Assembly (NCBI GenBank): GCA_902795345.1
Contig: CADBKO010000001.1
Coordinates: 1-64,000, forward strand
Direction of reading: 5' to 3'
Source of the DNA: Oscillospiraceae bacterium
GTDB lineage: Bacteria > Bacillota > Clostridia > Oscillospirales > Oscillospiraceae
Length of the DNA: 64,000 bases
In this document: positions 1,679 through 17,949 of the stretch, one piece after another
Layout: the number at the start of each line of letters is the position of its first letter
How positions within the stretch are numbered: the stretch's first letter is position 1
The notes under the pieces: generated by a model
Told to the model about the DNA's origin: nothing
The model's input: only the letters and a program-made list of their open reading frames with translations
Databases searched by the model: none
Made by a program: the position numbers and the translations under genes

Positions 1679-4296
1679 GCTTTGCTTATCCGGAACAGCG
1701 GAAGGATACGCTTTCGCATCTTTCTTTCTCCATCCCCCAGGGGCAATTCGTCACCCTCTGCGGTCCCTCCGGCTGCGGAAAAAGCACGCTGCTCCGGCAG
1801 CTCAAAACCGTCCTGGCCCCGGCAGGGGACCGGCGGGGCGTGATCCTCTTTGAGGGTACGCCCCTGGACGAAGTGGGGCAGCGGGATCAGAGCGAGCGTA
1901 TCGGCTTCGTGCAGCAGTCCCCGGAGAACCAGATCGTGACGGATAAGGTGTGGCACGAGCTGGCCTTCGGCCTGGAGAGCCTGGGCTGCGATACTCCCAC
2001 CATCCGCAGCCGGGTGGCGGAAATGGCCTCTTTTTTCGGCATCCAAACCTGGTTTTACAAGAACGTGACAGAGCTTTCCGGGGGGCAAAAGCAGCTCCTG
2101 AACCTGGCCTCCATCATGGCCATGCAGCCCTCCGTCCTCATTCTGGACGAGCCCACCAGCCAGCTGGACCCCATCGCCGCCTCGGACTTCCTCGCCACCA
2201 TCGGCAAAGTGAATCGGGAGCTGGGCACCACGATCCTCCTCACGGAGCATCGGCTGGAGGAGGCCTTTCCCCTCTCTGACCGGGTGCTGGTCATGGACAG
2301 AGGGCGGCTCATCGCAGACGGGACGCCCTCGGAGGTCGGCCAGCTTCTGCGGGGCAGCGGGCACGGGATGTTCCTGGCCATGCCCACGGCCATGCGGGTA
2401 TGGGCAAGCGTGGAGGATGATTCTCCCTGTCCCATCACTGTGCGGGATGGGCGGGACTGGCTGGCGGACTATGCGGATAAACATCCGCTGGGAGAGATCC
2501 CGGAGGAACAAGAAGCCACCAAGTCGGAGGAAACCGCCATCACTCTGGAAGACGTGTGGTTCAAATATGAAAAGGACCTGCCGGACGTGGTGAAGGGCGT
2601 AAGTCTCACCGTACAGAAGGGTGAATTTCTGGCCCTGCTGGGGGGGAACGGCACCGGCAAGACCACGACCCTTTCCCTGATTGGTGGCTTGCAGAAGCCC
2701 TACCGAGGCGAAGTCAAGCTGAACGGCAGAGTAGGCACCCTGCCGCAGAATCCGCAGACCCTCTTTGTGAAAAAGACGGTCCGGGAGGATTTGTTTGAGA
2801 TCTTCCGGGGCATGAAGTTGGAAAAGAAATACCAGGAGAACCGGGTGGCGCGGGCGGTGCAGCTCTGTCGCCTGGAGGAGCTGCTGGACCGGCATCCCTA
2901 CGACCTCTCCGGGGGCGAGCAGCAGCGGGCAGCGCTGGCGAAAGTGCTGCTTCTGGACCCGGAGATCCTGCTCCTGGACGAACCCACCAAGGGGCTTGAC
3001 GCGGAATTCAAGCAGGTTTTTGCCGTGATCCTGAAAACCCTGCAGCGTCGGGGCGTCACCGTGTTCATGGTGAGCCACGATGTGGAGTTCTGCGCGGAGT
3101 ACGCGGATCGCTGCGCCCTGTTTTTTGACGGAAACATCGTGTCCCAGGGACGGCCGAGAGAATTCTTCTCCGGTAACAGTTTTTACACCACCTCCGCCAA
3201 CCGTATGGCGCGGGGGCTGCTACCCGAAGCGGTGACACCCAGGGATGTGATGGCCGCCTGTGGGGGAATGCTTCCCCCGGAGCCGGAGCTGCTGGAAGAA
3301 GTACCGCCGCTGCCGGAACCGGACGAGAACAGCGCAAACGCCAAGCCCAAGAAGCTGCCGCTATGGCGCATCCTGCTGGCTGCTGTCAGCGGCGTGGGTG
3401 CGATCAGCCTTTTCATCCACACCCTGTCCCACCAGAACCTCTCCGAGCTCATCACGGAGAACGGCCTTACCACCGCCGCCTGGCAGGACATTCCCCTGTA
3501 TCTGCTGCTGGTGGCCTGCCTGCTCATCTGCGCCTTTTCCCTGAGTCGGAGAGCGCCCCAGCCGGTGCGCATCCAGACACCCAGGGACAAGCGGAAGCTC
3601 TCCAAGCGCACCGTCGCTGCCGCGATTTCCATCCTTCTGCTGATCCCCCTGACGATCTTCATCGGGGTCTACTATCTCGGTGGGACGCAGTATTACCTCA
3701 TTGCGATTCTCATCCTTGTAGAAACGATGCTGCCCTTCTTCCTGGTGTTCGAGGGGCGAAAGCCCCAGGCGCGGGAACTGGTGGTGATCGCCGTCCTCTG
3801 CGCCATCGGCGTGGTGGGCCGGGGCGCCTTTTTCATGCTGCCCTCCTTCAAGCCGGTGCTGGCCCTGGTCATCATTTCCGGGGTGGCCTTCGGCGGAGAG
3901 GCGGGTTTCCTTGTGGGCGCCATGACGATGGTGGCCTCCAACGTGCTGTTCGGACAAGGACCCTGGACGCCCTTCCAGATGTTCTCTGCGGGGATCATCG
4001 GGTTCCTGGCCGGAGTTCTCTTCCGCAAAGGCCTCCTGCGGCGGACGAAGATCTCCCTCTGCATTTTCGGGGCCATCGCCACAGTGGTGATCTACGGCGG
4101 CATCATGAACCCAGCCGCCGCCCTCATGTACGCCCACACACTGAACTGGAAGCTCCTTCTCACTTACTACGTATCCGGCATTCCCGTGGACCTGGTCCAC
4201 GCCACGGCGACGGTGCTGTTCCTCTGGCTGGCCGCCGAGCCCATGCTGGAGAAACTGGACCGGATCAAGGTGAAATACGGCCTTTATGAACCGTAG
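1651..4296 (+). CDS. ECF transporter fusion: two ABC ATPases plus membrane S component in one chain
   Basis: The 881-residue chain joins three normally separate subunits. ATPase 1 has Walker A GPSGCGKST at residues 38-46, signature LSGGQ at 142-146 and Walker B VLILDEP at 162-168. ATPase 2 has GGNGTGKTT at 331-339, LSGGE at 419-423 and ILLLDEP at 439-445. After a proline/glutamate-rich linker, residues from about 571 form multiple membrane helices with the glycine-rich character of ECF S components (for example the stretch around GRGAFFMLPSFKP). The start at ATG 1651 follows the ribosome-binding sequence GGGAGG and begins exactly at the first ATPase strand; longer upstream reading is inside ecfT. 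Domain identity is sure; the ligand is not known. Confidence 0.9.
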   Translation: MEAFEVRDLSFAYPEQRKDTLSHLSFSIPQGQFVTLCGPSGCGKSTLLRQLKTVLAPAGDRRGVILFEGTPLDEVGQRDQSERIGFVQQSPENQIVTDKVWHELAFGLESLGCDTPTIRSRVAEMASFFGIQTWFYKNVTELSGGQKQLLNLASIMAMQPSVLILDEPTSQLDPIAASDFLATIGKVNRELGTTILLTEHRLEEAFPLSDRVLVMDRGRLIADGTPSEVGQLLRGSGHGMFLAMPTAMRVWASVEDDSPCPITVRDGRDWLADYADKHPLGEIPEEQEATKSEETAITLEDVWFKYEKDLPDVVKGVSLTVQKGEFLALLGGNGTGKTTTLSLIGGLQKPYRGEVKLNGRVGTLPQNPQTLFVKKTVREDLFEIFRGMKLEKKYQENRVARAVQLCRLEELLDRHPYDLSGGEQQRAALAKVLLLDPEILLLDEPTKGLDAEFKQVFAVILKTLQRRGVTVFMVSHDVEFCAEYADRCALFFDGNIVSQGRPREFFSGNSFYTTSANRMARGLLPEAVTPRDVMAACGGMLPPEPELLEEVPPLPEPDENSANAKPKKLPLWRILLAAVSGVGAISLFIHTLSHQNLSELITENGLTTAAWQDIPLYLLLVACLLICAFSLSRRAPQPVRIQTPRDKRKLSKRTVAAAISILLLIPLTIFIGVYYLGGTQYYLIAILILVETMLPFFLVFEGRKPQARELVVIAVLCAIGVVGRGAFFMLPSFKPVLALVIISGVAFGGEAGFLVGAMTMVASNVLFGQGPWTPFQMFSAGIIGFLAGVLFRKGLLRRTKISLCIFGAIATVVIYGGIMNPAAALMYAHTLNWKLLLTYYVSGIPVDLVHATATVLFLWLAAEPMLEKLDRIKVKYGLYEP

Positions 4297-5431: not shown

Positions 5432-7036
5432 ATGTCCAAGATCAAGAACATAGCCCAGGGCTCCTATGTGACCGTCATTAAGCCCAGGGATATGAGTCCG
5501 GCAAAGCTGCGCGTGGCTGCATATTGCCGCGTCAGCAGCGACTCGGCGGACCAGATCAATTCCTACATCGCCCAGGTGGATCACTATACGAGGTATATCT
5601 CCTCCCATGAGGGCTGGGACTTGGCGGACATCTACGCTGACGAAGGGCTCACAGGCATGGAGGTCAACCACCGGGAAGAATTCAAGCGCATGATCGCAGA
5701 TTGCCGAGACGGGAAGATCGACCGCATCCTGGTCAAATCCATCTCCCGCTTCGCCCGGAACCAGGAGGATTACATCCTCCATATACGGGAGCTGCTTCGG
5801 CTGGGCGTCACGATCTACTTCGAGAAGGAGAACATCGATACAGGAAAAATCACCTCGGAGCAGACTGCGGACATCTACGGAGCCTTCGCGCAGATGGAAA
5901 CCACCAGCCACTCACAGAACATGCGCGTGAGCTACCGCATCCAGATGGAGAAGGGAATCTTCGTCCCGGCCAAGGCCCCCTACGGATACCGGTTGGTGGA
6001 CCGGGCGCTTCATATTGTCCCGGAGGAAGCGGAGATCGTGCGGTACATCTTCCGAGAGTTCTTAAATGGCCGCGGGAAACTGGATATCGCAAGGGAACTC
6101 AACGAGCGAGGCGTGGAACGCGGCAGCGACCGCGGGATCAGCAAGGCTGACGGTCCTGGCGCGTGGTATGTGGACACCATTAACTACATCCTCGCGAATG
6201 TCACCTACACAGGGGATCAGGTCTGGCACAAGACCTACAAGACCGACGTCTTGCCCTACCGCAAGGAGCGGAACAAGGGACAGAAGCCTAAATACTTCGC
6301 AGAGGACTGCTGCCCCGCGATCATCAGCAAGAAGGATTTTGAGAAAGCACAGCAGCTGATGGCCAGGAAGCGGGAAATCTATCCCAAGGCGCCAAGCATG
6401 GAGTCCATGTTCAGCAAACGGATCTTCTGTGCGGAATGCGGGGCCCCGTGCCGCAGGAAGAATGTCGGGGCGCAGATCTACTGGGTGTGCTGGCGGCATG
6501 ATCACGGCAAAGAGGCTTGCCCTGCTAAGGAAAGGCCGGAAATGAGAATTCGGGATGCCCTTTGCAGATTCTATTGGAAAATAAGGAATGGCAGGGAAAC
6601 GATCCTTCGTCCGGTCCTGACGCAGCTCAGGGAGCTGCAGGAACGGGAACTGAGAGCCGATCCGCGGCTCGGAGAAATCGACGCGGAAATAGCGAAGCTC
6701 ACAGATCAGAATCTTGTACTCACTCGACTGAAGTCGAAAGGGTATCTTGATTCTGATCTTTATTTATCTCAGATGGACGAGCTCAACGCCAGAGCGAGGG
6801 AGCTCCGCAAGCTGCGCCGCAGCATCCTGGAAAAGACCGGTGAGGACGAGCAGATCCGCAGAACGGAGGAAATGCTGGAGTATCTGGAAAGCAGCAACGG
6901 TCAGATGGACGGGCTTGACCCGCTCATCTTCACCGTGCTGATCGACCGCCTGCGCCTGACCGCAGACGGGAACGTCAGGATCAGGCTCCGGAACGGCCTG
7001 GAAGTGACGGAAACGCTGAATGCGGAGGCGAGATAA
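5432..7036 (+). CDS. Large serine recombinase 1
   Basis: The 534-residue protein has the large serine recombinase layout. The N-terminal resolvase domain (about residues 25-170) carries catalytic Ser35 in YCRVSS and the typical KSISRFARN; the 'recombinase' DNA-binding domain follows, then a zinc ribbon (CAECGAPC and WVCWRHD), then a coiled-coil C-terminus rich in Leu/Arg/Glu. Such enzymes cut and rejoin attachment sites through a 5' phosphoserine link, integrating or excising an element. It is the first of three adjacent recombinase genes, abutting the next directly (stop at 7036, start at 7037). It appears intact. Confidence 0.92.
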   Translation: MSKIKNIAQGSYVTVIKPRDMSPAKLRVAAYCRVSSDSADQINSYIAQVDHYTRYISSHEGWDLADIYADEGLTGMEVNHREEFKRMIADCRDGKIDRILVKSISRFARNQEDYILHIRELLRLGVTIYFEKENIDTGKITSEQTADIYGAFAQMETTSHSQNMRVSYRIQMEKGIFVPAKAPYGYRLVDRALHIVPEEAEIVRYIFREFLNGRGKLDIARELNERGVERGSDRGISKADGPGAWYVDTINYILANVTYTGDQVWHKTYKTDVLPYRKERNKGQKPKYFAEDCCPAIISKKDFEKAQQLMARKREIYPKAPSMESMFSKRIFCAECGAPCRRKNVGAQIYWVCWRHDHGKEACPAKERPEMRIRDALCRFYWKIRNGRETILRPVLTQLRELQERELRADPRLGEIDAEIAKLTDQNLVLTRLKSKGYLDSDLYLSQMDELNARARELRKLRRSILEKTGEDEQIRRTEEMLEYLESSNGQMDGLDPLIFTVLIDRLRLTADGNVRIRLRNGLEVTETLNAEAR

Positions 7037-7900
7037 ATGGCTTGGCAGAGGAAGATTCCCTTTGGCTACCGGATGGAGCAAGGGTCCCTCGCCTGCGAGC
7101 GGACGGAGGCCGAAACAGTGAGACGAGTATTCTCCATGTACCTGGCCGGCAACTCTATGAAGCGGATTGCCGAGGTCATGACAGAGCAGGGCGTTCCTTA
7201 TCACAGAGACAAGCCCTGCTGGAATAAGAACATGGTGAAGCGGATTCTGGAAAACGGGAAGTACCTTGGCGACGGAGAATACCCGCGCATCATCCGTGAC
7301 GAGGATTTCCTCGCCGCTCAGCAGTTGAAGGAAAGCAAAAACCTGTACGCTCCCTGCCCTGCAAAGATAGCGCCCCTTAAGGGTAAGCTCGTCTGCGGCG
7401 TTTGCGGGACCGGAATGATGCGGCTGTCTGTCGGCAACGGCGCCGCCAGATGGAAATGCCGTAACTCGGACTGCCCATGCGCCGTGCGCTTCCCGGACAG
7501 CGAGCTCTGCGGAAAGGTGGATGACTGCCTCCGGGTGATCGCGCAGACGCCGGAGCTGCTGGCGGATTGCGAGGTTTCGCCGCCCCCTGTCCAGTCCGAC
7601 GTCATGCGGCTGGAAAACGAGCTGGTCGCGGCCTTCAACCGCGGCACGGAAAGTACCGATTACATGAAGGCCCTGATCTTCGCGGTGGCCGCAGAGAAAT
7701 ACAAGCAGATACCAGACCACACGCTTCAGCGCAAGGTGAGAAGCCTTCAAGAGAAGGTAACCGCCCAGGAGCTTACGGATCAGCTGAAGCAGGAGCTGCT
7801 GGACACCGTGGTGCAGGCCATTCAGATCGGGATAGGAACCAGCGTCAATATGCAGCTTATCAACGGGCAATCCGTGGAAAGCAAGGAGGATACGCGATGA
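7037..7900 (+). CDS. Recombinase-like protein lacking the catalytic domain
   Basis: These 287 residues begin directly with the 'recombinase' domain (IPFGYRMEQ and onward) and continue into a zinc ribbon (CGVCGTGM with KCRNSDCPC) and a helical tail. The N-terminal serine catalytic domain present in both flanking recombinases is missing, so it cannot cut DNA by itself. The start abuts the stop of recombinase 1, and its end overlaps the start of recombinase 3 by four bases (ATGA), so the three are translated as a unit. A role as DNA-binding partner or directionality factor is an inference from this conserved position. It could alternatively be a degenerated copy, but its tidy start and overlaps argue against decay. 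Confidence 0.82.
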   Translation: MAWQRKIPFGYRMEQGSLACERTEAETVRRVFSMYLAGNSMKRIAEVMTEQGVPYHRDKPCWNKNMVKRILENGKYLGDGEYPRIIRDEDFLAAQQLKESKNLYAPCPAKIAPLKGKLVCGVCGTGMMRLSVGNGAARWKCRNSDCPCAVRFPDSELCGKVDDCLRVIAQTPELLADCEVSPPPVQSDVMRLENELVAAFNRGTESTDYMKALIFAVAAEKYKQIPDHTLQRKVRSLQEKVTAQELTDQLKQELLDTVVQAIQIGIGTSVNMQLINGQSVESKEDTR

Positions 7901-9537
7901 GCGTCTATACGGCAGCAGCGAAAAAGGTTACCGTTATTCCCGCCGATCCCCAGTATTCACAGAGGGATATCCGAAAACAGCACCTGCGGGTAGCGCCATA
8001 CTGCCGTGTCTCCACGGACAGCGACGAACAACTGACCAGTTACAGGGCACAGATCGAATACTATACCGCAAAAATCGCGGAAAATCCTGACTGGACGATG
8101 GTTCGCATGTATGCGGATGAAGGCACCACGGGCACCTCCATGAAAAAGCGTAAGCACTTTCTGGAGATGATCGCTGACTGTGAAGCAGGAAAAATCGATC
8201 TCGTGATTACCAAATCCACCACCCGCTTCGCCCGCAATACGTTGGAGGGCATTCAGATCGTCCGCAAGCTCAGACGGCTGGGCATCGGCGTGTTCTTCGA
8301 GAAGGAGAACGCGAACACGCTCTATATGGACAATGAGATGATCCTGACGTTCTTCTTCTCCCAGGCCCAGGCGGAGAGCGAGTCCCTCAGCAAGAACGTC
8401 AGCTGGGGCCACCGCAGGAACTACGAAAACGGGAAGGTCTACTACCAATATGACAGCTTCCTGGGGTATAAAAAAGGCCCGGACGGGAAGCCGGAGATCG
8501 ATGAGGAGCAAGCCCCCATCGTGCGGCGCATCTTCGCCCGCTACCTCATGGGCGACAGCGTCCGCAAGATCTGCAGGGATCTGGAGGCGGACGGCATCAG
8601 AACCGTGCGGGGCTGTGAGAAGTGGTCGGACAGCACGGTCCAGAATATGCTCCGGAACGAGAAGTACATCGGCGACGCGCTCCTGCAAAAGACGTATGTG
8701 CAGGACATCTTCACCCGCAAGAGCATGAAGAACCTGGGCCAGCTCCCCAAATACTATGTTCACAACTGCCACCCGGCCATCATCGACCGCACGACCTTCC
8801 AGAGGGTCCAGGAGGAGATCGCTCGGCGCTCCAGCAAGAAAAAGACCTCCTCAAAGGCAAAGACGGAGCTGGGCAAGTACAGCGGGAAATACGCCCTCAG
8901 CGAACTGCTGGTCTGCGGCGAATGCGGCAGCCCCTACCGCCGCCAGACCTATATGCCGAAGGGTGAAAAGTACCACGTCTGGCGCTGCCTGAACCGCTTG
9001 GAGAACGGAACGCGCATCTGCAAGCACTCCCCGACCTTCCTGGAGACAGACATCCATGACGCCATCGTTGCGGCGATGAATGAACAGCTTGTCCGGCAGA
9101 GAGCAAAGGATGAGCTGAAGCAGAGCATGTACACCGCTCTGGCCGCTGCGGAACCGGAGATGACGCTCCCCGCCGTGGAGAGCAAGATCAAGGCACTTCG
9201 GGATCGGCAGGTCGAGCTGATCGGACTTGCCACAGCGGAGGGAGCGAAGTTCGAGGATTACGATCAGGAGATCAGCAAGGTCAACGAGGAAAGGCTGCGG
9301 TTGCTTGGGATCAGGGCGGAGCTGGAGATGGCCCAGCAGACCAACTCCGCCTTTGATCAGCGCATGGAGGAAATTGACGCGGCACTCTCGCAGGAAAGCG
9401 GGATGATCGAGGAATACGACGATATCCGGACCAGGCAGCTCATCAGCAACATCAAGGTGCTGGACAAGGAACGCCTACTCATCCGATTCAAGGACGGAAC
9501 CGAGAGCGTTAAGCATATAGGGAAGGGAAATGCCTGA
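7897..9537 (+). CDS. Large serine recombinase 3
   Basis: This 546-residue protein has a resolvase domain with catalytic Ser39 in YCRVSTDSDEQ and KSTTRFARN, a recombinase domain, a zinc ribbon (CGECGSPYRR and WRCLNRLENG) and a long coiled-coil region. The start at ATG 7897 overlaps the preceding stop; the longer open frame upstream is inside the middle gene. The C-terminus ends SVKHIGKGNA, a tail that recurs in a remnant at 11919-11948. It appears intact. With recombinase 1 it could form a hetero-oligomeric integrase, as proposed for other multi-recombinase cassettes in Firmicutes. Confidence 0.92.
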   Translation: MSVYTAAAKKVTVIPADPQYSQRDIRKQHLRVAPYCRVSTDSDEQLTSYRAQIEYYTAKIAENPDWTMVRMYADEGTTGTSMKKRKHFLEMIADCEAGKIDLVITKSTTRFARNTLEGIQIVRKLRRLGIGVFFEKENANTLYMDNEMILTFFFSQAQAESESLSKNVSWGHRRNYENGKVYYQYDSFLGYKKGPDGKPEIDEEQAPIVRRIFARYLMGDSVRKICRDLEADGIRTVRGCEKWSDSTVQNMLRNEKYIGDALLQKTYVQDIFTRKSMKNLGQLPKYYVHNCHPAIIDRTTFQRVQEEIARRSSKKKTSSKAKTELGKYSGKYALSELLVCGECGSPYRRQTYMPKGEKYHVWRCLNRLENGTRICKHSPTFLETDIHDAIVAAMNEQLVRQRAKDELKQSMYTALAAAEPEMTLPAVESKIKALRDRQVELIGLATAEGAKFEDYDQEISKVNEERLRLLGIRAELEMAQQTNSAFDQRMEEIDAALSQESGMIEEYDDIRTRQLISNIKVLDKERLLIRFKDGTESVKHIGKGNA

Positions 9538-9621
9538 CAGTGCGGTTGTCCTCTGATACGCCGGTCGCGGCGGTATACTTCACGGAAAGAATTGACGTGG
9601 GACTAAAGAGGTAAAACGGAT

Positions 9622-10447: not shown

Positions 10448-11041
10448 ATGAGTAAATTTGAGCTGTTAGACGAGCTGGTCGAAGCTGGAAATGGATATCT
10501 CTGCACTGCACAGGTGCTGGAATCCGGAGTCTCCAAACCTACACTTGCGGAATATGTCCAAAAACGGAATCTCCAGCGTGTTGCCCAGGGCGTGTATCTT
10601 TCAGAGAATGCGTGGCCTGATAATCTTTATCTTCTATGCCTCTCCAACGGTCGAATCATTTTCTCTCACGAAACGGCCCTGTTTCTTCATGGACTGATGG
10701 AACGTGAGCCCAAATTCATAAGCGTGACCGTGAAAGCGGGCTATAATGCAACACATCTTCGAAAAAAAGGTGTCCGAGTATATCAGGTAAAGCCTGATGC
10801 GGCAGAGCTTGGCGCAATCGAGATCGAGACCAGCTTTGGGAATGCTGTCCGTGCTTATGACATGGAGCGGACGATCTGCGATATCATCCGTTATAAGGAT
10901 TCGATAGACGTACAGGTTTTTCAATACGCCATGAAGGAGTACATGTCGAGTGACCACAAGAATCTAAACCATCTAATGGACTATGCCGGACGGTTCCAAA
11001 TCGAATCCGCAGTGCGAACCTATACGGAGGTTATGTTATGA
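10448..11041 (+). CDS. abiEi: AbiEi-type antitoxin (type IV toxin-antitoxin)
   Basis: The 197-residue protein has an N-terminal winged-helix segment (ELLDELVEAGNGYLCTAQVL through YVQKRNLQRV) and the antitoxin-domain pattern including GVYLSENAWPDNLYLL and FSHETALFLHGL. AbiEi represses the operon and counteracts the AbiEii nucleotidyltransferase without direct binding. It overlaps the toxin start by four bases (10448-11041 against 11038), which is typical. The pair is a phage-abortive-infection and element-stabilisation system. The length matches the family and no damage is seen. Confidence 0.88.
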   Translation: MSKFELLDELVEAGNGYLCTAQVLESGVSKPTLAEYVQKRNLQRVAQGVYLSENAWPDNLYLLCLSNGRIIFSHETALFLHGLMEREPKFISVTVKAGYNATHLRKKGVRVYQVKPDAAELGAIEIETSFGNAVRAYDMERTICDIIRYKDSIDVQVFQYAMKEYMSSDHKNLNHLMDYAGRFQIESAVRTYTEVML

Positions 11042-11871
11042 TTAAGACAGCGACGCAGTTAAAAGCAAAAATAAGAAACCTGTCCGGCAGTGACAGCCAA
11101 AAAGCCCAGACTCTGATTCGCAATTATGTCATGGAGCGTTTTCTGGAGCGAATGGCTCTCTCCCGTTACCGTAACAACTTTATTCTAAAAGGCGGCATGC
11201 TGGTGGCTGCGGTCGTTGGTCTGGACACCAGGGCCACAATGGATATTGATACGACGGTTAAATCTCTGGATCTTTCCAAAGACAATGCTTACAGGATCAT
11301 AGAAGAAATCATAGCGGTTGAGATCCCTGATGGCATACGATTTCGCATAACGAAATCTGCGGATATCATGGAAGAACATGATTATCCTGGAATCAGGTTC
11401 ATGCTGGAAGCCACATTGGATAAGATGCGGCAGGCCATCAAAATCGACATTTCCACCGGAGATGTTATTACTCCAGGAGCCATAGAGTATTCCTATCCGC
11501 TGATGTTCGAGGATCGTGCGATATCTCTTTGGACATACAATCTGGAGACACTTCTGGCAGAAAAGCTGGAAACAATCATGGCGCGTGGTACGGCAAACAC
11601 CAGGATGCGTGATTTCTACGATATCCATGTTATCAGCCGCCAGGAAACTATTGACGCCAATGTTTTAAAGAACGCTTTTCTTGCGACATGCGAAAAGAGG
11701 AACACGACAAATCAAATCCCTGATTTCAAAGAAATCCTCTTCACTTTGGAAACAGATGATGCCATGCATCACTTGTGGGATAGCTATCGGAAGGACTCTT
11801 TCTTCGTCGAAGATTTGTCGTGGAGTGAGGTTATGGGGAGCGTGAGAGGGCTTGCTGACTGCGTCATATGA
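11038..11871 (+). CDS. abiEii: AbiEii-type nucleotidyltransferase toxin
   Basis: The 277-residue protein has the nucleotidyltransferase-fold motifs of AbiEii/MNT toxins: KGG at residues 51-53 and the metal-binding acidic pair Asp69/Asp71 in ATMDIDTT, followed by LETLLAEKLETIMARG and RMRDFYDIHVI. Family members inhibit growth by adding nucleotides to targets such as tRNA. The start ATG overlaps the antitoxin stop. Its own stop overlaps by four bases with a short frame that carries a recombinase-like tail (11868-11948), so the toxin operon appears to have been inserted against an older recombinase end. It appears intact. Confidence 0.88.
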   Translation: MIKTATQLKAKIRNLSGSDSQKAQTLIRNYVMERFLERMALSRYRNNFILKGGMLVAAVVGLDTRATMDIDTTVKSLDLSKDNAYRIIEEIIAVEIPDGIRFRITKSADIMEEHDYPGIRFMLEATLDKMRQAIKIDISTGDVITPGAIEYSYPLMFEDRAISLWTYNLETLLAEKLETIMARGTANTRMRDFYDIHVISRQETIDANVLKNAFLATCEKRNTTNQIPDFKEILFTLETDDAMHHLWDSYRKDSFFVEDLSWSEVMGSVRGLADCVI

Positions 11872-12339: not shown

Positions 12340-13407
12340 ATGGATAATTATTATAACGGGGCGAGTGAACTGCAAGGATTAAATGTTAATGGATGGCATA
12401 TACTAGAGAGCTACAAACACAAGGCAACGACAGGGGGCAATTTTTCATATGGGTATGAAGTCATAAACGACGAAGGACAATCTGGCTTTTTAAAAGCCCT
12501 CGATTATACCGATGCTTTTAAACGCCCTGATCCTGCCTTGGAGTTGCATGCAATGACCGAAGCATATCTGTTTGAGAGAAGACTACTCGAAGAGTGCAGG
12601 AATAAACGACTAAAGCATGTAGTAAGAATCATTGATAGTGGTAAATACACTATACCAGAAAACAGAATCCCAAGTGGAATGGTGTGTCTTCCGATTGATT
12701 ATCTGATCCTGGAAAAAGCTGATGAATCTGTGCGAGACCTAATAGATCTAAGCACAAATCTGGATTATGCGTGGATGTTGAGATCTTTACATAATGTGGC
12801 CGTCGGTATAGAGGAGATGCATGGCATTCAAATGGCTCATCAGGATGTAAAGCCTTCCAATGTTCTGGTTTTCGGAAACAGCAACATATCTAAACTGGGG
12901 GACGTTGGAAGATCAGTTTCGATGAACATATCTGCCCCACACGATCAATATAGTTTTTCTGGTGATGGGGGGTATTCTCCGTTGGAATTGCTTTATGGGA
13001 AAATCCCAACTGATTGGCGCATTTATAGGTTCAGTTGCGATATGTATATGTTTGGGAATCTCATAACTACATATTTTGCGAACGTATCCCTTACTCAACA
13101 GATCCTTTTGCGGTTGCCACGCTCAGCGCGACCAGGAGTATGGGGAGACACTTATGATGATATTCTACCACAGATCGAACAAAAGTTTTCTGAGTGCCTC
13201 GAAGATATTAAACCTTTTATTCCAGAAGAGTTTAGAAGCGAGATGGTATCTATTATTAGACAACTGTGTGAACCTGATATTGTTCAGCGTGGTGATGTTT
13301 CAAGAAAGCATCTTGGGAGCCCGCAGTATTCCCTTCAGAAGTATATCTCTCGGCTTGATTATTGGGCTCAGAAACTCGAAAACAAAATTGGAAGGATTCT
13401 ATCATGA
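12340..13407 (+). CDS. Hanks-type Ser/Thr protein kinase
   Basis: The 355-residue protein contains a bacterial eukaryotic-like kinase domain. Lys52 (GFLKALDY) sits in the ATP-binding lobe position, catalytic Asp169 is in HQDVKPSN, and Asp188 in GDVGRS replaces the usual DFG. A region matching the activation segment follows (SGDGGYSPLELLYG), then helical lobe motifs. No membrane segment or sensor domain is attached, so it is cytosolic. It overlaps the next gene (TPR) by four bases, making a two-gene operon. Base composition is much more AT-rich than the surrounding chromosome, indicating recent transfer. The targets are unknown; a phage-defence role is a possibility, not a demonstrated one. 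Confidence 0.82.
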   Translation: MDNYYNGASELQGLNVNGWHILESYKHKATTGGNFSYGYEVINDEGQSGFLKALDYTDAFKRPDPALELHAMTEAYLFERRLLEECRNKRLKHVVRIIDSGKYTIPENRIPSGMVCLPIDYLILEKADESVRDLIDLSTNLDYAWMLRSLHNVAVGIEEMHGIQMAHQDVKPSNVLVFGNSNISKLGDVGRSVSMNISAPHDQYSFSGDGGYSPLELLYGKIPTDWRIYRFSCDMYMFGNLITTYFANVSLTQQILLRLPRSARPGVWGDTYDDILPQIEQKFSECLEDIKPFIPEEFRSEMVSIIRQLCEPDIVQRGDVSRKHLGSPQYSLQKYISRLDYWAQKLENKIGRILS

Positions 13408-14891
13408 TTCAAGCAGAAAATCATATGGAAAGACATACCATTCCTCGATGGCTCAATATGGAAATTGCAAGCAAACTTGGCGAGATGGAGTCGAGTAGAA
13501 AGAAGGAACCTGAAAGAAGTCTTCCTGCTGGAACTACTTTATCTGAGCTTCTTGAAGAGTGGAAAATAGAAAAGAATCTTCCATTAGCGATAGAAATAAT
13601 CGCAGCTAACGAGTTGAATAGTGAGAATCATAGTGATCAGTTATTTGAGATAAAAGAGTTTGCTCGTTCAAGACTCCAAAACATAGAAAGAGTTCCGCCA
13701 GCCTTATTGACATTAATTGGTGATAATGAGCATATACCCATTGCTGGAATAAGACCTGTGGATGTGGCGTCAATAAAGAAGAACCTTAGTGAATATCCAA
13801 GGAATCCATTAATGTGGACTGAATTAGCGAGACAGTACCTCATAAACGGTTACACGGATAAAAGCGAAAGGGCAATTAAGGTTGCTTATGGACTTGCGCC
13901 GAACAACCGCACCGTTTTAAGAGCAATCGCACGGTTTTACTCTCACATAGAGGATTATGCTCAAGCCAGGTATTATTTGCAAAAGAGCCCAAAAGTTAAA
14001 ACAGATCCTTGGGTTTTGTCAGCTGAAATCGCAATATGCAATCAATCTGGGATTACTTCCACTTTCACCAAAACTGGGCAAAGAATGTTGGAAAGCGGCA
14101 ATTATCAGCCTAACTCATTAAGCGAGTTGGGAAGTGAACTTGCTACCATGGACTTCTTTTCAGCAAAAAGTAAACAAGGTAAACGGAAACTTGAAGCGGT
14201 TGTTTCCGCACCTCATGAGAATGCAGTAGCACAATTAATTTGGCTTGATGAGCATGTTTATCGAATCCAGCCCATATTGGAAAGGGTTAAAAAACCATTA
14301 TATAATTATGAAGCCGAATCGATGTCAGATTATTTTCGCCATGATTTTGTGGAAGCTGCTAAGGCTGCGAAAGAATGGAGGGATTATCAGCCGTTTTCAA
14401 GCAAACCGATAACTTGGATGAGTTATTTGCTTTCAGATTTTTTGTGCAAATATGAAGATGCATGTAGTGTTTTGAAAACGGCCCTTAAAGGAAACCAAAC
14501 AAATGTGGTTGTTTTGAATAACTATGCCTATGCGCTAATATCAACAGGGAATACCAATGAGGCGGAACATATTATTAAACTGGCTAAAAGAATAGGTACG
14601 TCGCAATGTAGCATTCCATTTATGGCAACAGAAGGGTTTTTGGCGTATCGTACTGGTAATCGTGACTTGGGAAGAGAAAAGTATGAACAAGCGGTTGAAA
14701 TGGCTAAGGAAGTGGCCCAAAAAACCGGAGATCAAAGAACATTATTTGAAGTTTATATTCATTTTGCGCGAGAAGAACTAGTTTCCGGACATGATATTTC
14801 AACTCTGAGCAGTATCATCAGTTCGCGTCGGTTTTCAAAACTACGAGAAGAATTCGAGACAGTATTAACCAATTTTGGATTAGCGTGGTGA
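13404..14891 (+). CDS. Tetratricopeptide-repeat protein paired with the kinase
   Basis: The start is placed at ATG 13404, which overlaps the kinase stop (ATGA); the longer frame lies inside the kinase. The 495-residue protein is almost wholly helical, with TPR-like repeats at roughly residues 130-210 (for example WTELARQYLINGYTDKSERA and LRAIARFYSHIEDYAQARYY) and again at 340-450 (VVVLNNYAYALISTGNTNEA). TPR arrays bind partner proteins or peptides. Tight coupling implies that it is the kinase's substrate, scaffold or sensor. No catalytic domain is visible. It is AT-rich like its partner. Confidence 0.75.
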   Translation: MIQAENHMERHTIPRWLNMEIASKLGEMESSRKKEPERSLPAGTTLSELLEEWKIEKNLPLAIEIIAANELNSENHSDQLFEIKEFARSRLQNIERVPPALLTLIGDNEHIPIAGIRPVDVASIKKNLSEYPRNPLMWTELARQYLINGYTDKSERAIKVAYGLAPNNRTVLRAIARFYSHIEDYAQARYYLQKSPKVKTDPWVLSAEIAICNQSGITSTFTKTGQRMLESGNYQPNSLSELGSELATMDFFSAKSKQGKRKLEAVVSAPHENAVAQLIWLDEHVYRIQPILERVKKPLYNYEAESMSDYFRHDFVEAAKAAKEWRDYQPFSSKPITWMSYLLSDFLCKYEDACSVLKTALKGNQTNVVVLNNYAYALISTGNTNEAEHIIKLAKRIGTSQCSIPFMATEGFLAYRTGNRDLGREKYEQAVEMAKEVAQKTGDQRTLFEVYIHFAREELVSGHDISTLSSIISSRRFSKLREEFETVLTNFGLAW

Positions 14892-14981
14892 AAACACTTT
14901 TGGGTTTCTGTATCCCTGGGAATTGAAAAACGAGCTTCGCTAAATAGATTGATAGGAGTTTTAACCGATTAATGCAATTCG

Positions 14982-15019
14982 TTAAAATCTCAACACAAAA
15001 GTGTTAAGATTTTAATTTT
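14982..15019 (+). terminator. Rho-independent terminator of the kinase/TPR operon
   Basis: TTAAAATCT-C-AACAC (14982-14996) pairs with GTGTT-A-AGATTTTAA (15001-15015) around AAAA, with one mismatch, followed by TTTT. The remaining part of the gap to 15108 shows nothing recognisable. Confidence 0.65.
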
Positions 15020-15108: not shown

Positions 15109-16377
15109 TTGGTGAACTTGGAACTTGCCATCGGTCCCGAATTGCTCCCCGAAAACGGCTTTGACCCACAGCCGACCCACACCAGAAAGACCGATCCCCA
15201 GGGTTTCTACATCGGGAAGGACCGCCACGGCTCCAACATCATCGTGGATCTGGAGCGCCGCGCCGAGGACAAGACCAACGGCAGCGTCCTCATCCTGGGC
15301 AACTCCGGCATGGGTAAGAGCTTCCTGCTGAAGCTCCTGCTGGTGAACGTGCTGGAATCCGGCAAGACAGCGATCTGTCTGGACCCGGAGCATGAGCTCG
15401 TGGATCTCAGTCGGAACCTGGGCGGCTGCTTCATCGACCTGATGAGCGGCAGATACATCATTAACCCCTTGGAACCCAAGCTGTGGGATGTGGACGGAGA
15501 TGACGATCCTGACGCTCCAGAGGCATTTCGGAAGCATTCCCGGCTCAGTCAGCACATCTCTTTCCTCAAGGATTTCTTCCGGGCGTATAAGGATTTCTCG
15601 CAGTGGCACATCGACACCATCGAGCTGATGCTGGAGCGGCTTTACCGGAAGTGGAATATGGACGATGGCACGGACTTCACCGGGCTTGGCGCGGCAGACT
15701 ATCCCATTCTCTCCGACCTCTACGCCGTGATCGAGGAAGCCTGCCGAGGCTATGAAGCGGAGCAAAGGCCCCTGTATACAAAGGAGCTGCTGCAGGAAGT
15801 ACTCCTGGGGCTTCACTCCATGTGTGTGGGCGCGGAGAGCTGTTTCTTCAACGGCCACACCAACATCACCTCGGACCGCTTCCTTGTCTTCGGCGTCAAG
15901 GGGCTTGTGAACGGAAACGAAAATGTGAAGGACGCGCTGCTCTTCAATGTGCTGTCCTACCTCAGCGACAAACTGCTCACCGAAGGCAATACTGTGGCGG
16001 CGCTGGATGAGCTGTATATCTGGCTCTCCTCCCGCATGACCGTAGAGTATATCCGCAATACCCTCAAGCGTGTACGAAAGAAGGAATCCTCCCTCATCAT
16101 GGCCTCGCAGAATCTGGAGGACTTCAACGTGGACGGCGTCCGAGAACTGACCCGGCCCCTGTTTGCCATCCCGACCCATCGGTTCATCTTCCATTGCGGC
16201 TCGGTGGACCGGCAGTTCTATATGCAGAATCTCCAGCTGGAGGAAAGCGAGTACGAGCTCATCCGCCATCCACAGAACGGCGTCTGCCTGTACAAGTGCG
16301 GCGTGGAACGCTTCCTCCTGGAAGTACACGCTCCGGAGTACAAGCAGGCCCTCTTCGGCACTGCGGGCGGGAGATAA
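15109..16377 (+). CDS. VirB4/TraC-type conjugation ATPase, C-terminal half only
   Basis: The frame encodes 422 residues with Walker A GNSGMGKS at 64-71 and Walker B VAALDEL around 296-302, plus RKKESSLIMASQNLEDF and a C-terminal end typical of VirB4-like ATPases of clostridial conjugative elements. Full-length relatives are about twice as long; the N-terminal domain that docks to the secretion channel is missing. The frame has only a TTG at 15109 and a GTG at 15112 as candidate starts and no convincing ribosome-binding site, so it is best read as a truncated remnant. No other type IV secretion gene accompanies it. ATPase motifs remain intact, which suggests recent truncation. Confidence 0.78.
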   Translation: MVNLELAIGPELLPENGFDPQPTHTRKTDPQGFYIGKDRHGSNIIVDLERRAEDKTNGSVLILGNSGMGKSFLLKLLLVNVLESGKTAICLDPEHELVDLSRNLGGCFIDLMSGRYIINPLEPKLWDVDGDDDPDAPEAFRKHSRLSQHISFLKDFFRAYKDFSQWHIDTIELMLERLYRKWNMDDGTDFTGLGAADYPILSDLYAVIEEACRGYEAEQRPLYTKELLQEVLLGLHSMCVGAESCFFNGHTNITSDRFLVFGVKGLVNGNENVKDALLFNVLSYLSDKLLTEGNTVAALDELYIWLSSRMTVEYIRNTLKRVRKKESSLIMASQNLEDFNVDGVRELTRPLFAIPTHRFIFHCGSVDRQFYMQNLQLEESEYELIRHPQNGVCLYKCGVERFLLEVHAPEYKQALFGTAGGR

Positions 16378-16437: not shown

Positions 16438-17766
16438 TTACAGAAACGGCGTCATGTACACAGGAAGACAAATGACATCCGTATCCTTTGCATAGTCTTT
16501 CGTGTAGACGAGATATCGCCGATAGATCCGGCTCGGATACTTCGCAAAGAACTCGTCAAGTGATTTGTGGGTTTTGTAGCCGGAAGACTTGATTTCAAGC
16601 GGACAAATCTTGTTGTTCCGTGCAAGCAAAAAGTCTATTTCGTAGTTGTGTCTGGAAGCATCGTTTCGGAAGGTGTGGTAGAAGAGTTCATTTCCATTTG
16701 CGGTCAAAACCTGAGCTACTGCGTTTTCGTACAGATAGCCAAGATTTGCGGAGAGCTTATCATTCAGCAGCTTTTCATATAGCTCATTCTCCGTAAAGTC
16801 TCGGTCCTTGAACATCAGCGTGGTAAAGAGTCCTGTGTCGCAAACAAAGAGCTTGAAAGCTGCAAGGTTTTTATTGGCAGATAAGCCTGCACTTGGGTCA
16901 TTCGCGTGATAAGAAACCAGAACAGTTTTTGAATCCTTCATGTCTGCAATCAGTTGAAGCAAATCCTCCGCCCGAGCGTGTTCAAGAACGCTGGACACCT
17001 GATACCTGGACGCATTCTTGTTCAGCTGTGCCGGAATCGCATCGAACAGCAACGCAGCTCGACCGGTAGAGTCAGTTTTCTGGAAATCGTCTTCATAGAG
17101 GTTGAGAATGTCGCGTTTCACCAAGTCAACTTTTCTGAAATTGTTTGTGGCGATGAATTCATTCACAGCCTGCGGCATGCCGCCGACGAGCATATACAAT
17201 CTGAAATTGCGCAGCAATTGCCGATTCGCTTGCTGACCCAGCGGTTTTCCGGTCTCATAAAACTGACGGATCACCTTATAGCTTGTATGATCTCCCATAG
17301 CCCAGAGGAATTCCTCGTAATCCATCGGGAACATCTGCAGTTTTCGTTCTTCGCTGGGGATAAGAATGTCCTTGACATTTTTCCGAATGGAAATCAAAGA
17401 TCCGGTTTCCACATAATCATACCGGTGATCTTTTACAAGATGCTTAATTGCCTGCCTTGCGCGGGGACAAAACTGTACCTCGTCGAAAATGATCAAAGAC
17501 TTCCTTTCAACGAGGTCAACATGAAATTGCAGTTGCAGTTGTAGGAACAGATAATTGAGGTCGGAAAGATCCTCAAAGAGATTTCGGACAGATTTGGATG
17601 CAAGGGAAAAATCGATCAGGATATAACTCTCGTACTCATTCCTGGCAAATTCCTCGACGATCGTCGACTTGCCAATACGACGGGCACCTTCAATCAGCAA
17701 AGCGGTATGACCGTCAGATTCGTGTTTCCATTCGACAAGTTTATCGTAAATCTTGCGCTTGAACAT
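16438..17766 (-). CDS. AAA ATPase with DUF4143 domain
   Basis: The 442-residue protein has an AAA_14 ATPase domain with Walker A GARRIGKST at residues 27-35 and Walker B LIIFDEVQ (Asp95, Glu96). A middle DUF4143 region follows, and its C-terminal part has the PD-(D/E)XK-like pattern IDFLLARNNKICPLEIKSS. Proteins of this family are abundant in anaerobes; their biochemical role is not established. The gene is monocistronic, faces left, and has a strong GGGAGGG ribosome-binding site before ATG 17766. Three related palindromic half-sites upstream (17780-17868) suggest regulation of its promoter. It sits just beyond the mobile-element remnant and may be cargo. Confidence 0.8.
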   Translation of the reverse strand: MFKRKIYDKLVEWKHESDGHTALLIEGARRIGKSTIVEEFARNEYESYILIDFSLASKSVRNLFEDLSDLNYLFLQLQLQFHVDLVERKSLIIFDEVQFCPRARQAIKHLVKDHRYDYVETGSLISIRKNVKDILIPSEERKLQMFPMDYEEFLWAMGDHTSYKVIRQFYETGKPLGQQANRQLLRNFRLYMLVGGMPQAVNEFIATNNFRKVDLVKRDILNLYEDDFQKTDSTGRAALLFDAIPAQLNKNASRYQVSSVLEHARAEDLLQLIADMKDSKTVLVSYHANDPSAGLSANKNLAAFKLFVCDTGLFTTLMFKDRDFTENELYEKLLNDKLSANLGYLYENAVAQVLTANGNELFYHTFRNDASRHNYEIDFLLARNNKICPLEIKSSGYKTHKSLDEFFAKYPSRIYRRYLVYTKDYAKDTDVICLPVYMTPFL

Positions 17767-17868: not shown

Positions 17869-17949
17869 CAAGAACGTTCAGAAAAATGGCTCTCTTCGTC
17901 ACGGCGAGCGGGAGAATAAAAAGCGGCGGTATCAAACGAGCCAAGAAGC

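Follow-up and report, generated by a model that had tools for sequence, protein, structure and literature searches.

What does a two-gene unit made of a protein kinase and a tetratricopeptide repeat (TPR) protein do in a mobile region of a bacterial genome, and does it belong to a known family? This question is raised by a stretch of 64,000 nucleotides from an Oscillospiraceae bacterium (GenBank assembly GCA_902795345.1, contig CADBKO010000001.1, positions 1 to 64,000; hereafter the window). An earlier sequence-only reading had proposed the unit as a candidate defence module, but had not recognised the pair. Both genes, their ATGA overlap and their AT-rich composition are as described there: the GC content is 41.3% for the kinase gene and 39.5% for the TPR gene, compared to 57.9% over the whole window and 59-60% in the flanks.

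12340-13407, + strand: Hanks-type Ser/Thr protein kinase, 355 amino acids, PDC-M71A; stop codon TGA at 13405-13407
13404-13407, + strand: ATGA overlap, shared by the kinase stop and the TPR start
13404-14891, + strand: TPR-solenoid protein, 495 amino acids, PDC-M71B
14981-15016, + strand: AT-rich hairpin 89 nucleotides past the TPR stop, probable transcription terminator

The pair can now be named, because PADLOC holds exactly this combination as the candidate PDC-M71. The kinase matches PDC-M71A with an E-value of 8.2e-102 (residues 4-350 on profile positions 5-349 of 352) and the TPR protein matches PDC-M71B with 5.5e-104 (residues 6-464 on profile positions 6-477 of 515). In Pfam, the two proteins match Pkinase (4e-10) and TPR_19 (5e-10), respectively; NCBIfam has no specific model for either. 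The A and B genes are adjacent on one strand, and every homologous locus that includes both ends has them in the same order. Judged by these profile matches, the pair is a member of an already catalogued candidate family. PDC systems are treated in surveys as unpublished candidates or as lacking a test, with validation pending for most (PMC11811056, PMC12988326), and their origin is given as a "guilt-by-embedding" screen (Payne et al., bioRxiv 10.1101/2024.01.29.577857, as cited in PMC12988326). A literature search by the name PDC-M71 gave no paper, and broader searches gave surveys and related systems only; a published test of its anti-phage activity was not found in these searches. Because an experimental test of the pair was not found in the literature, we infer a defence role, strongly, from its PDC-M71 profile matches, rarity, linkage, mobility and nearness to defence genes, all of which support the earlier proposal. 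We put the probability of a general role in anti-phage defence at about 80%.

Linkage and distribution of the two genes

Is the pair a conserved unit or a single coincidence? The sequence-only reading had suggested a search for co-occurrence, and the linkage turned out to be complete from both search directions. A tblastn search with the TPR protein found plasmids of Deinococcus, Arthrobacter and Rhizobium, each with the kinase gene directly upstream, and the same three records gave full-length kinase matches. Scanning genome contigs with the TPR protein gave 11 loci from Actinomycetota, Pseudomonadota, Latescibacterota, Verrucomicrobiota, Acidobacteriota (Bryobacterales) and Planctomycetota; the kinase lies upstream of the TPR gene in all ten that have upstream sequence. 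One of these kinases (L015) has an in-frame TGA at 9618-9620, its TPR gene is intact and an Argonaute gene adjoins. Anchored on the kinase, the search of IMG/VR found eight contigs, which represent seven distinct loci, and in all of them the TPR gene follows; here a first scan with a single sequence was empty, and the matches came from alignment-based scans. Finally, in each of ten genomes searched whole there is one strong kinase match, and it is always the paired copy. In every homologous locus that was examined the two genes stand together, far more often than chance would allow.

The gene trees of the two proteins also match. Gene trees of 21 kinase/TPR pairs have several supported clades in common, and the mirror-tree distance correlation is r = 0.80, a value that none of 2000 permutations reached (maximum 0.41). 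Four-nucleotide overlaps of the two genes, as in the window, are present in many homologous loci, and the ATGA overlap implies that kinase and TPR protein would be made by coupled translation.

Altogether, the pair is rare; copies were found on plasmids, on nine IMG/VR contigs, in Escherichia coli and in genomes that represent at least seven phyla. It is present in none of 59 relatives and in none of 390 other members of the class; a weak TPR match in one relative (G054, 6.7e-5) was set aside as a generic TPR. Among 5426 E. coli genomes 13 have it, in about four strain groups, and the E. coli proteins match PDC-M71A (3e-94) and PDC-M71B (6e-103). INPHARED phage records hold no relative of the kinase, of the TPR protein or of the prophage TPR copy. 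The pair is thus neither a widespread core-genome trait nor a single occurrence without conserved linkage, the two outcomes which had been named beforehand as speaking against a defence module.

Genomic surroundings and what they argue for

The sequence-only reading had further proposed to look for enrichment near defence genes, and several copies indeed lie at an antiviral hotspot or near restriction systems, Argonaute or other defence genes. In two P2-like prophages (L023, L024) the pair is inserted between the genes for the gpA replication protein (phrog_91) and the gpQ portal (phrog_68), and L024 continues with P2-type terminase, scaffold and capsid genes. This interval, the old/tin locus of P2, is known as a hotspot for anti-phage systems (Rousset et al. 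2022, PMC9122126), so both copies occupy an antiviral hotspot. The portal gene beside the pair in L024 (10809-11818) reads as two open reading frames (ORFs), possibly due to a frameshift. Elsewhere, a Type III restriction-modification system follows the pair (L008), a Type IIG enzyme is close by (L014), or an Argonaute is accompanied by a Type IIG enzyme (L015), all within 10 kb. A background test with two methyltransferase families in ten genomes gave two matches in about 167 kb of flanks versus about 0.2 expected (Poisson P ~0.02), which is suggestive only.

In E. coli (L049-L052) the pair is part of a mobile island that also has a DotA/TraY-family gene; most of the copies read have RepL and a MobQ relaxase too. 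These islands also hold AbiP2/DRT, ThsB-like TIR and retron-type reverse transcriptase genes; the defence genes around the pair appear exchangeable. A hypothetical gene of 415 amino acids follows the pair in all four loci. In E. coli TW10590 the pair spans 11902-14625 of L049. Other copies adjoin integrases (L010, L011, L018/L025) or a recombinase (L022), or have a portal gene near (L017).

Such company would also be expected if the pair regulated the conjugation or lysogeny of its carrier and had no part in phage defence, since it is found beside relaxases, genes of type IV secretion systems, integrases and RepL. Its carriers, however, are plasmids, P2-like and other prophages, segments resembling integrative and conjugative elements (ICE) and chromosomal loci with restriction systems; because these are unrelated, the pair is not tied to one transfer system. 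Housekeeping for a mobile element is therefore the last of three alternatives in our ranking and very improbable.

Ranked before it, and still quite unlikely, is a regulatory function, in which the two proteins would sense stress and, in response, control an immune or mobile-element operon next to them. A precedent is CapK-CapS, where a kinase and its substrate are encoded upstream of immune operons (PMC13373217), and in two alphaproteobacterial copies a related MarR-like regulator gene lies directly upstream of the kinase (L005 3450-3980, L013 8473-8934). Against this, neighbours vary by locus and a search for a third conserved gene among the homologous loci found none. Neither protein matches a DNA-binding domain in Pfam, and what the P2-like prophages carry at the hotspot is mainly this pair.

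The surroundings of the pair in the window itself bear on the remaining alternative. DNA common with genomes of the same genus ends at about 4283-4291 and resumes at 17922, from where on one relative (G003) is 94% identical; none of the relative contigs compared spans both flanks, so no empty site was seen. Because the common DNA stops and restarts at these points, the region of about 4.3-17.9 kb behaves as a foreign segment. ORFs at 5432-7036 and 7037-7900 and one ending at 9537, on one strand, read as large serine recombinases and are probably its integration module. A VirB4-family ATPase gene (15109-16377) covers the C-terminal part of the profile only (486-893 of 894, the last 45%); lacking the N-terminal half, it is a likely remnant of a conjugative element. 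Together, these genes support the decaying conjugative element that had been proposed. Just inside the right boundary an AAA_14/DUF4143 ATPase is encoded on the minus strand (16438-17766). Of the terminator assigned to the end of the pair, a well-folding structure stands: the hairpin has a minimum free energy of -13.4 kcal/mol (z = -4.6 versus shuffled sequence). A consensus terminator scan lists none downstream of the TPR gene, and an Rfam search of the window had no match. Upstream, the AbiE pair was found as reported, with antitoxin and toxin genes in tandem beside the kinase-TPR pair:

10448-11041, + strand: AbiEi antitoxin of the neighbouring AbiE type IV toxin-antitoxin/abortive-infection system (PADLOC AbiEi 6.6e-65); context, outside the pair
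11038-11871, + strand: AbiEii nucleotidyltransferase toxin (PADLOC AbiEii 1.2e-101); context, outside the pair

Could the pair be a toxin-antitoxin system as well? The kinase would then be poisonous alone, with the TPR protein as antitoxin; the pair would stabilise mobile elements, and defence would result from loss of the antitoxin. Two translationally coupled genes on plasmids, ICE-like segments and prophages would suit this, as would the adjoining AbiE and the example of KKP, whose kinase toxicity is restrained by a partner (PMC11341870). Six E. coli 0H genomes, though, have an IS5 element between the kinase and TPR genes (L051 13051-14031); it alters the kinase C terminus and leaves the TPR gene about 1.2 kb downstream. 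As IS5 splits the pair, strict co-expression is not essential in E. coli 0H; the kinase may be dead there, however. The P2 hotspot and the restriction neighbours favour defence cargo over a stability cassette. A toxin-antitoxin function heads our ranking of alternatives, but we consider it unlikely.

The two proteins and a possible mechanism

How would a kinase and a TPR protein protect the cell? The kinase has every residue expected for a Hanks-type enzyme (catalytic lysine and glutamate, HxD, asparagine, DxG and an APE-type glutamate). Residues K52, E79, H167-x-D169-x-K171, N174, D188-x-G190, E216, D234 and R317 are invariant (K52, E79, H167, D169, N174, D188, G190 and E216 in 21 sequences), and by this pattern the active site is intact. 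In most members the catalytic loop is HQD instead of HRD, making it a non-RD kinase. The AlphaFold2 model (pLDDT 91.8) agrees, the PDB matches listed being all protein kinases.

The TPR protein is modelled as an all-helical single solenoid (pLDDT 84.5). No enzyme or catalytic domain was detected in it by Pfam, by the model or by fold search. The structural search which the sequence-only reading had recommended returned generic TPR solenoids only (TM-score 0.2-0.46 against the PDB). Interferon-induced IFIT proteins are among its best natural sequence matches; since the match spans one or two repeats only, no homology is drawn. Two regions stand out by conservation: an N-terminal motif, R10-x3-P14-x-W16 (RHTIPRW here), whose R, P and W are invariant in all complete sequences, and the repeats at about 161-280, where conservation peaks. 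Residue S240, a serine or threonine in 20 of 21 sequences, was considered as a phosphosite and looks like a helix cap instead. In four close pairs the nonsynonymous divergence (dN) of the TPR protein exceeds that of the kinase in every case, by 1.4-2.3 fold (0.133/0.057, 0.398/0.215, 0.323/0.238 and 0.641/0.445); because synonymous divergence is saturated, selection on the TPR protein cannot be inferred from these values. Its lowest identities in these pairs lie mostly around alignment positions 81-120 and past 360.

As the TPR protein is devoid of an enzyme domain, the kinase is the only catalytic part. Because of this, and because the TPR protein varies faster, we favour a scheme in which the TPR protein, as sensor or scaffold, controls the kinase as effector. 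The TPR protein would hold or dock the kinase, probably via the R-x3-P-x-W segment and the conserved central repeats, and would read infection through its variable repeats. Upon infection, the kinase would be freed when a phage product binds or when inhibition is lost, and would phosphorylate host or phage proteins; growth or phage production would then stop by abortive infection or dormancy. We infer here that the two proteins form a physical complex, that the TPR protein is the sensor, that the kinase acts as effector and that growth is arrested. We give even odds to this scheme, in which infection is sensed by the TPR protein and the kinase is thereby licensed to shut down the cell. A sharper version, in which the TPR receptor directly licenses a non-RD Hanks-type kinase on infection, with R-x3-P-x-W as the switch and across many phyla, is a tentative proposal that we would rather doubt than believe.

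Some points weigh against defence and sensing. The faster evolution of the TPR protein could reflect weak constraint instead of sensing. The neighbour statistics rest on few loci, and in four loci (L006, L009, L012, L016) none of the neighbours checked is a recognised defence gene. Moreover, the searches gave no phage assay, no toxicity test and no interaction data on the PDC-M71 family. Kinase-based phage defence is little understood. If the sensor-effector scheme is true, a two-protein receptor-kinase pair would be about the simplest form of it, and the question of the trigger would become directly testable. What the present analysis adds to the catalogue entry is the placement at a P2 prophage hotspot, the copies near restriction systems and Argonaute, an intact E. 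coli homologue and residues to mutate. The value of the pair lies in being a rare, testable kinase-based candidate immune module with a homologue in E. coli.

Comparison with known systems

Among described systems, KKP resembles the pair in being a prophage-borne Ser/Thr kinase module. Its kinase activity is a phage-triggered toxin, the growth-stopping arm of defence (PMC11341870). KKP consists of two kinases and a phosphatase, whereas the pair has one kinase and a TPR protein and no phosphatase, so it is no KKP system. Stk2 and PD-T4-6 share the protein kinase fold and a weak similarity to the kinase (1e-7 to 1e-3 in PADLOC), but neither is its best profile, the E-value for PDC-M71A being lower by over 70 orders of magnitude. 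Stk2 and PD-T4-6 are not known to act with a TPR partner. MkoA of Mokosh (1.5e-12) and the MAD6 kinase of MADS (2.8e-10) are alike in the kinase domain, but their profiles are matched over this domain only and no other Mokosh or MADS gene lies beside the pair. CapK-CapS is similar as a kinase with a partner near immune genes; it combines an anti-sigma-type kinase with a DNA-binding STAS repressor, in contrast to the Hanks-type kinase and TPR solenoid described here, which do not form a CapK-CapS pair. PDC-M71 has the same two genes, with both proteins matched over nearly their full length, and its status in PADLOC is that of a candidate only.
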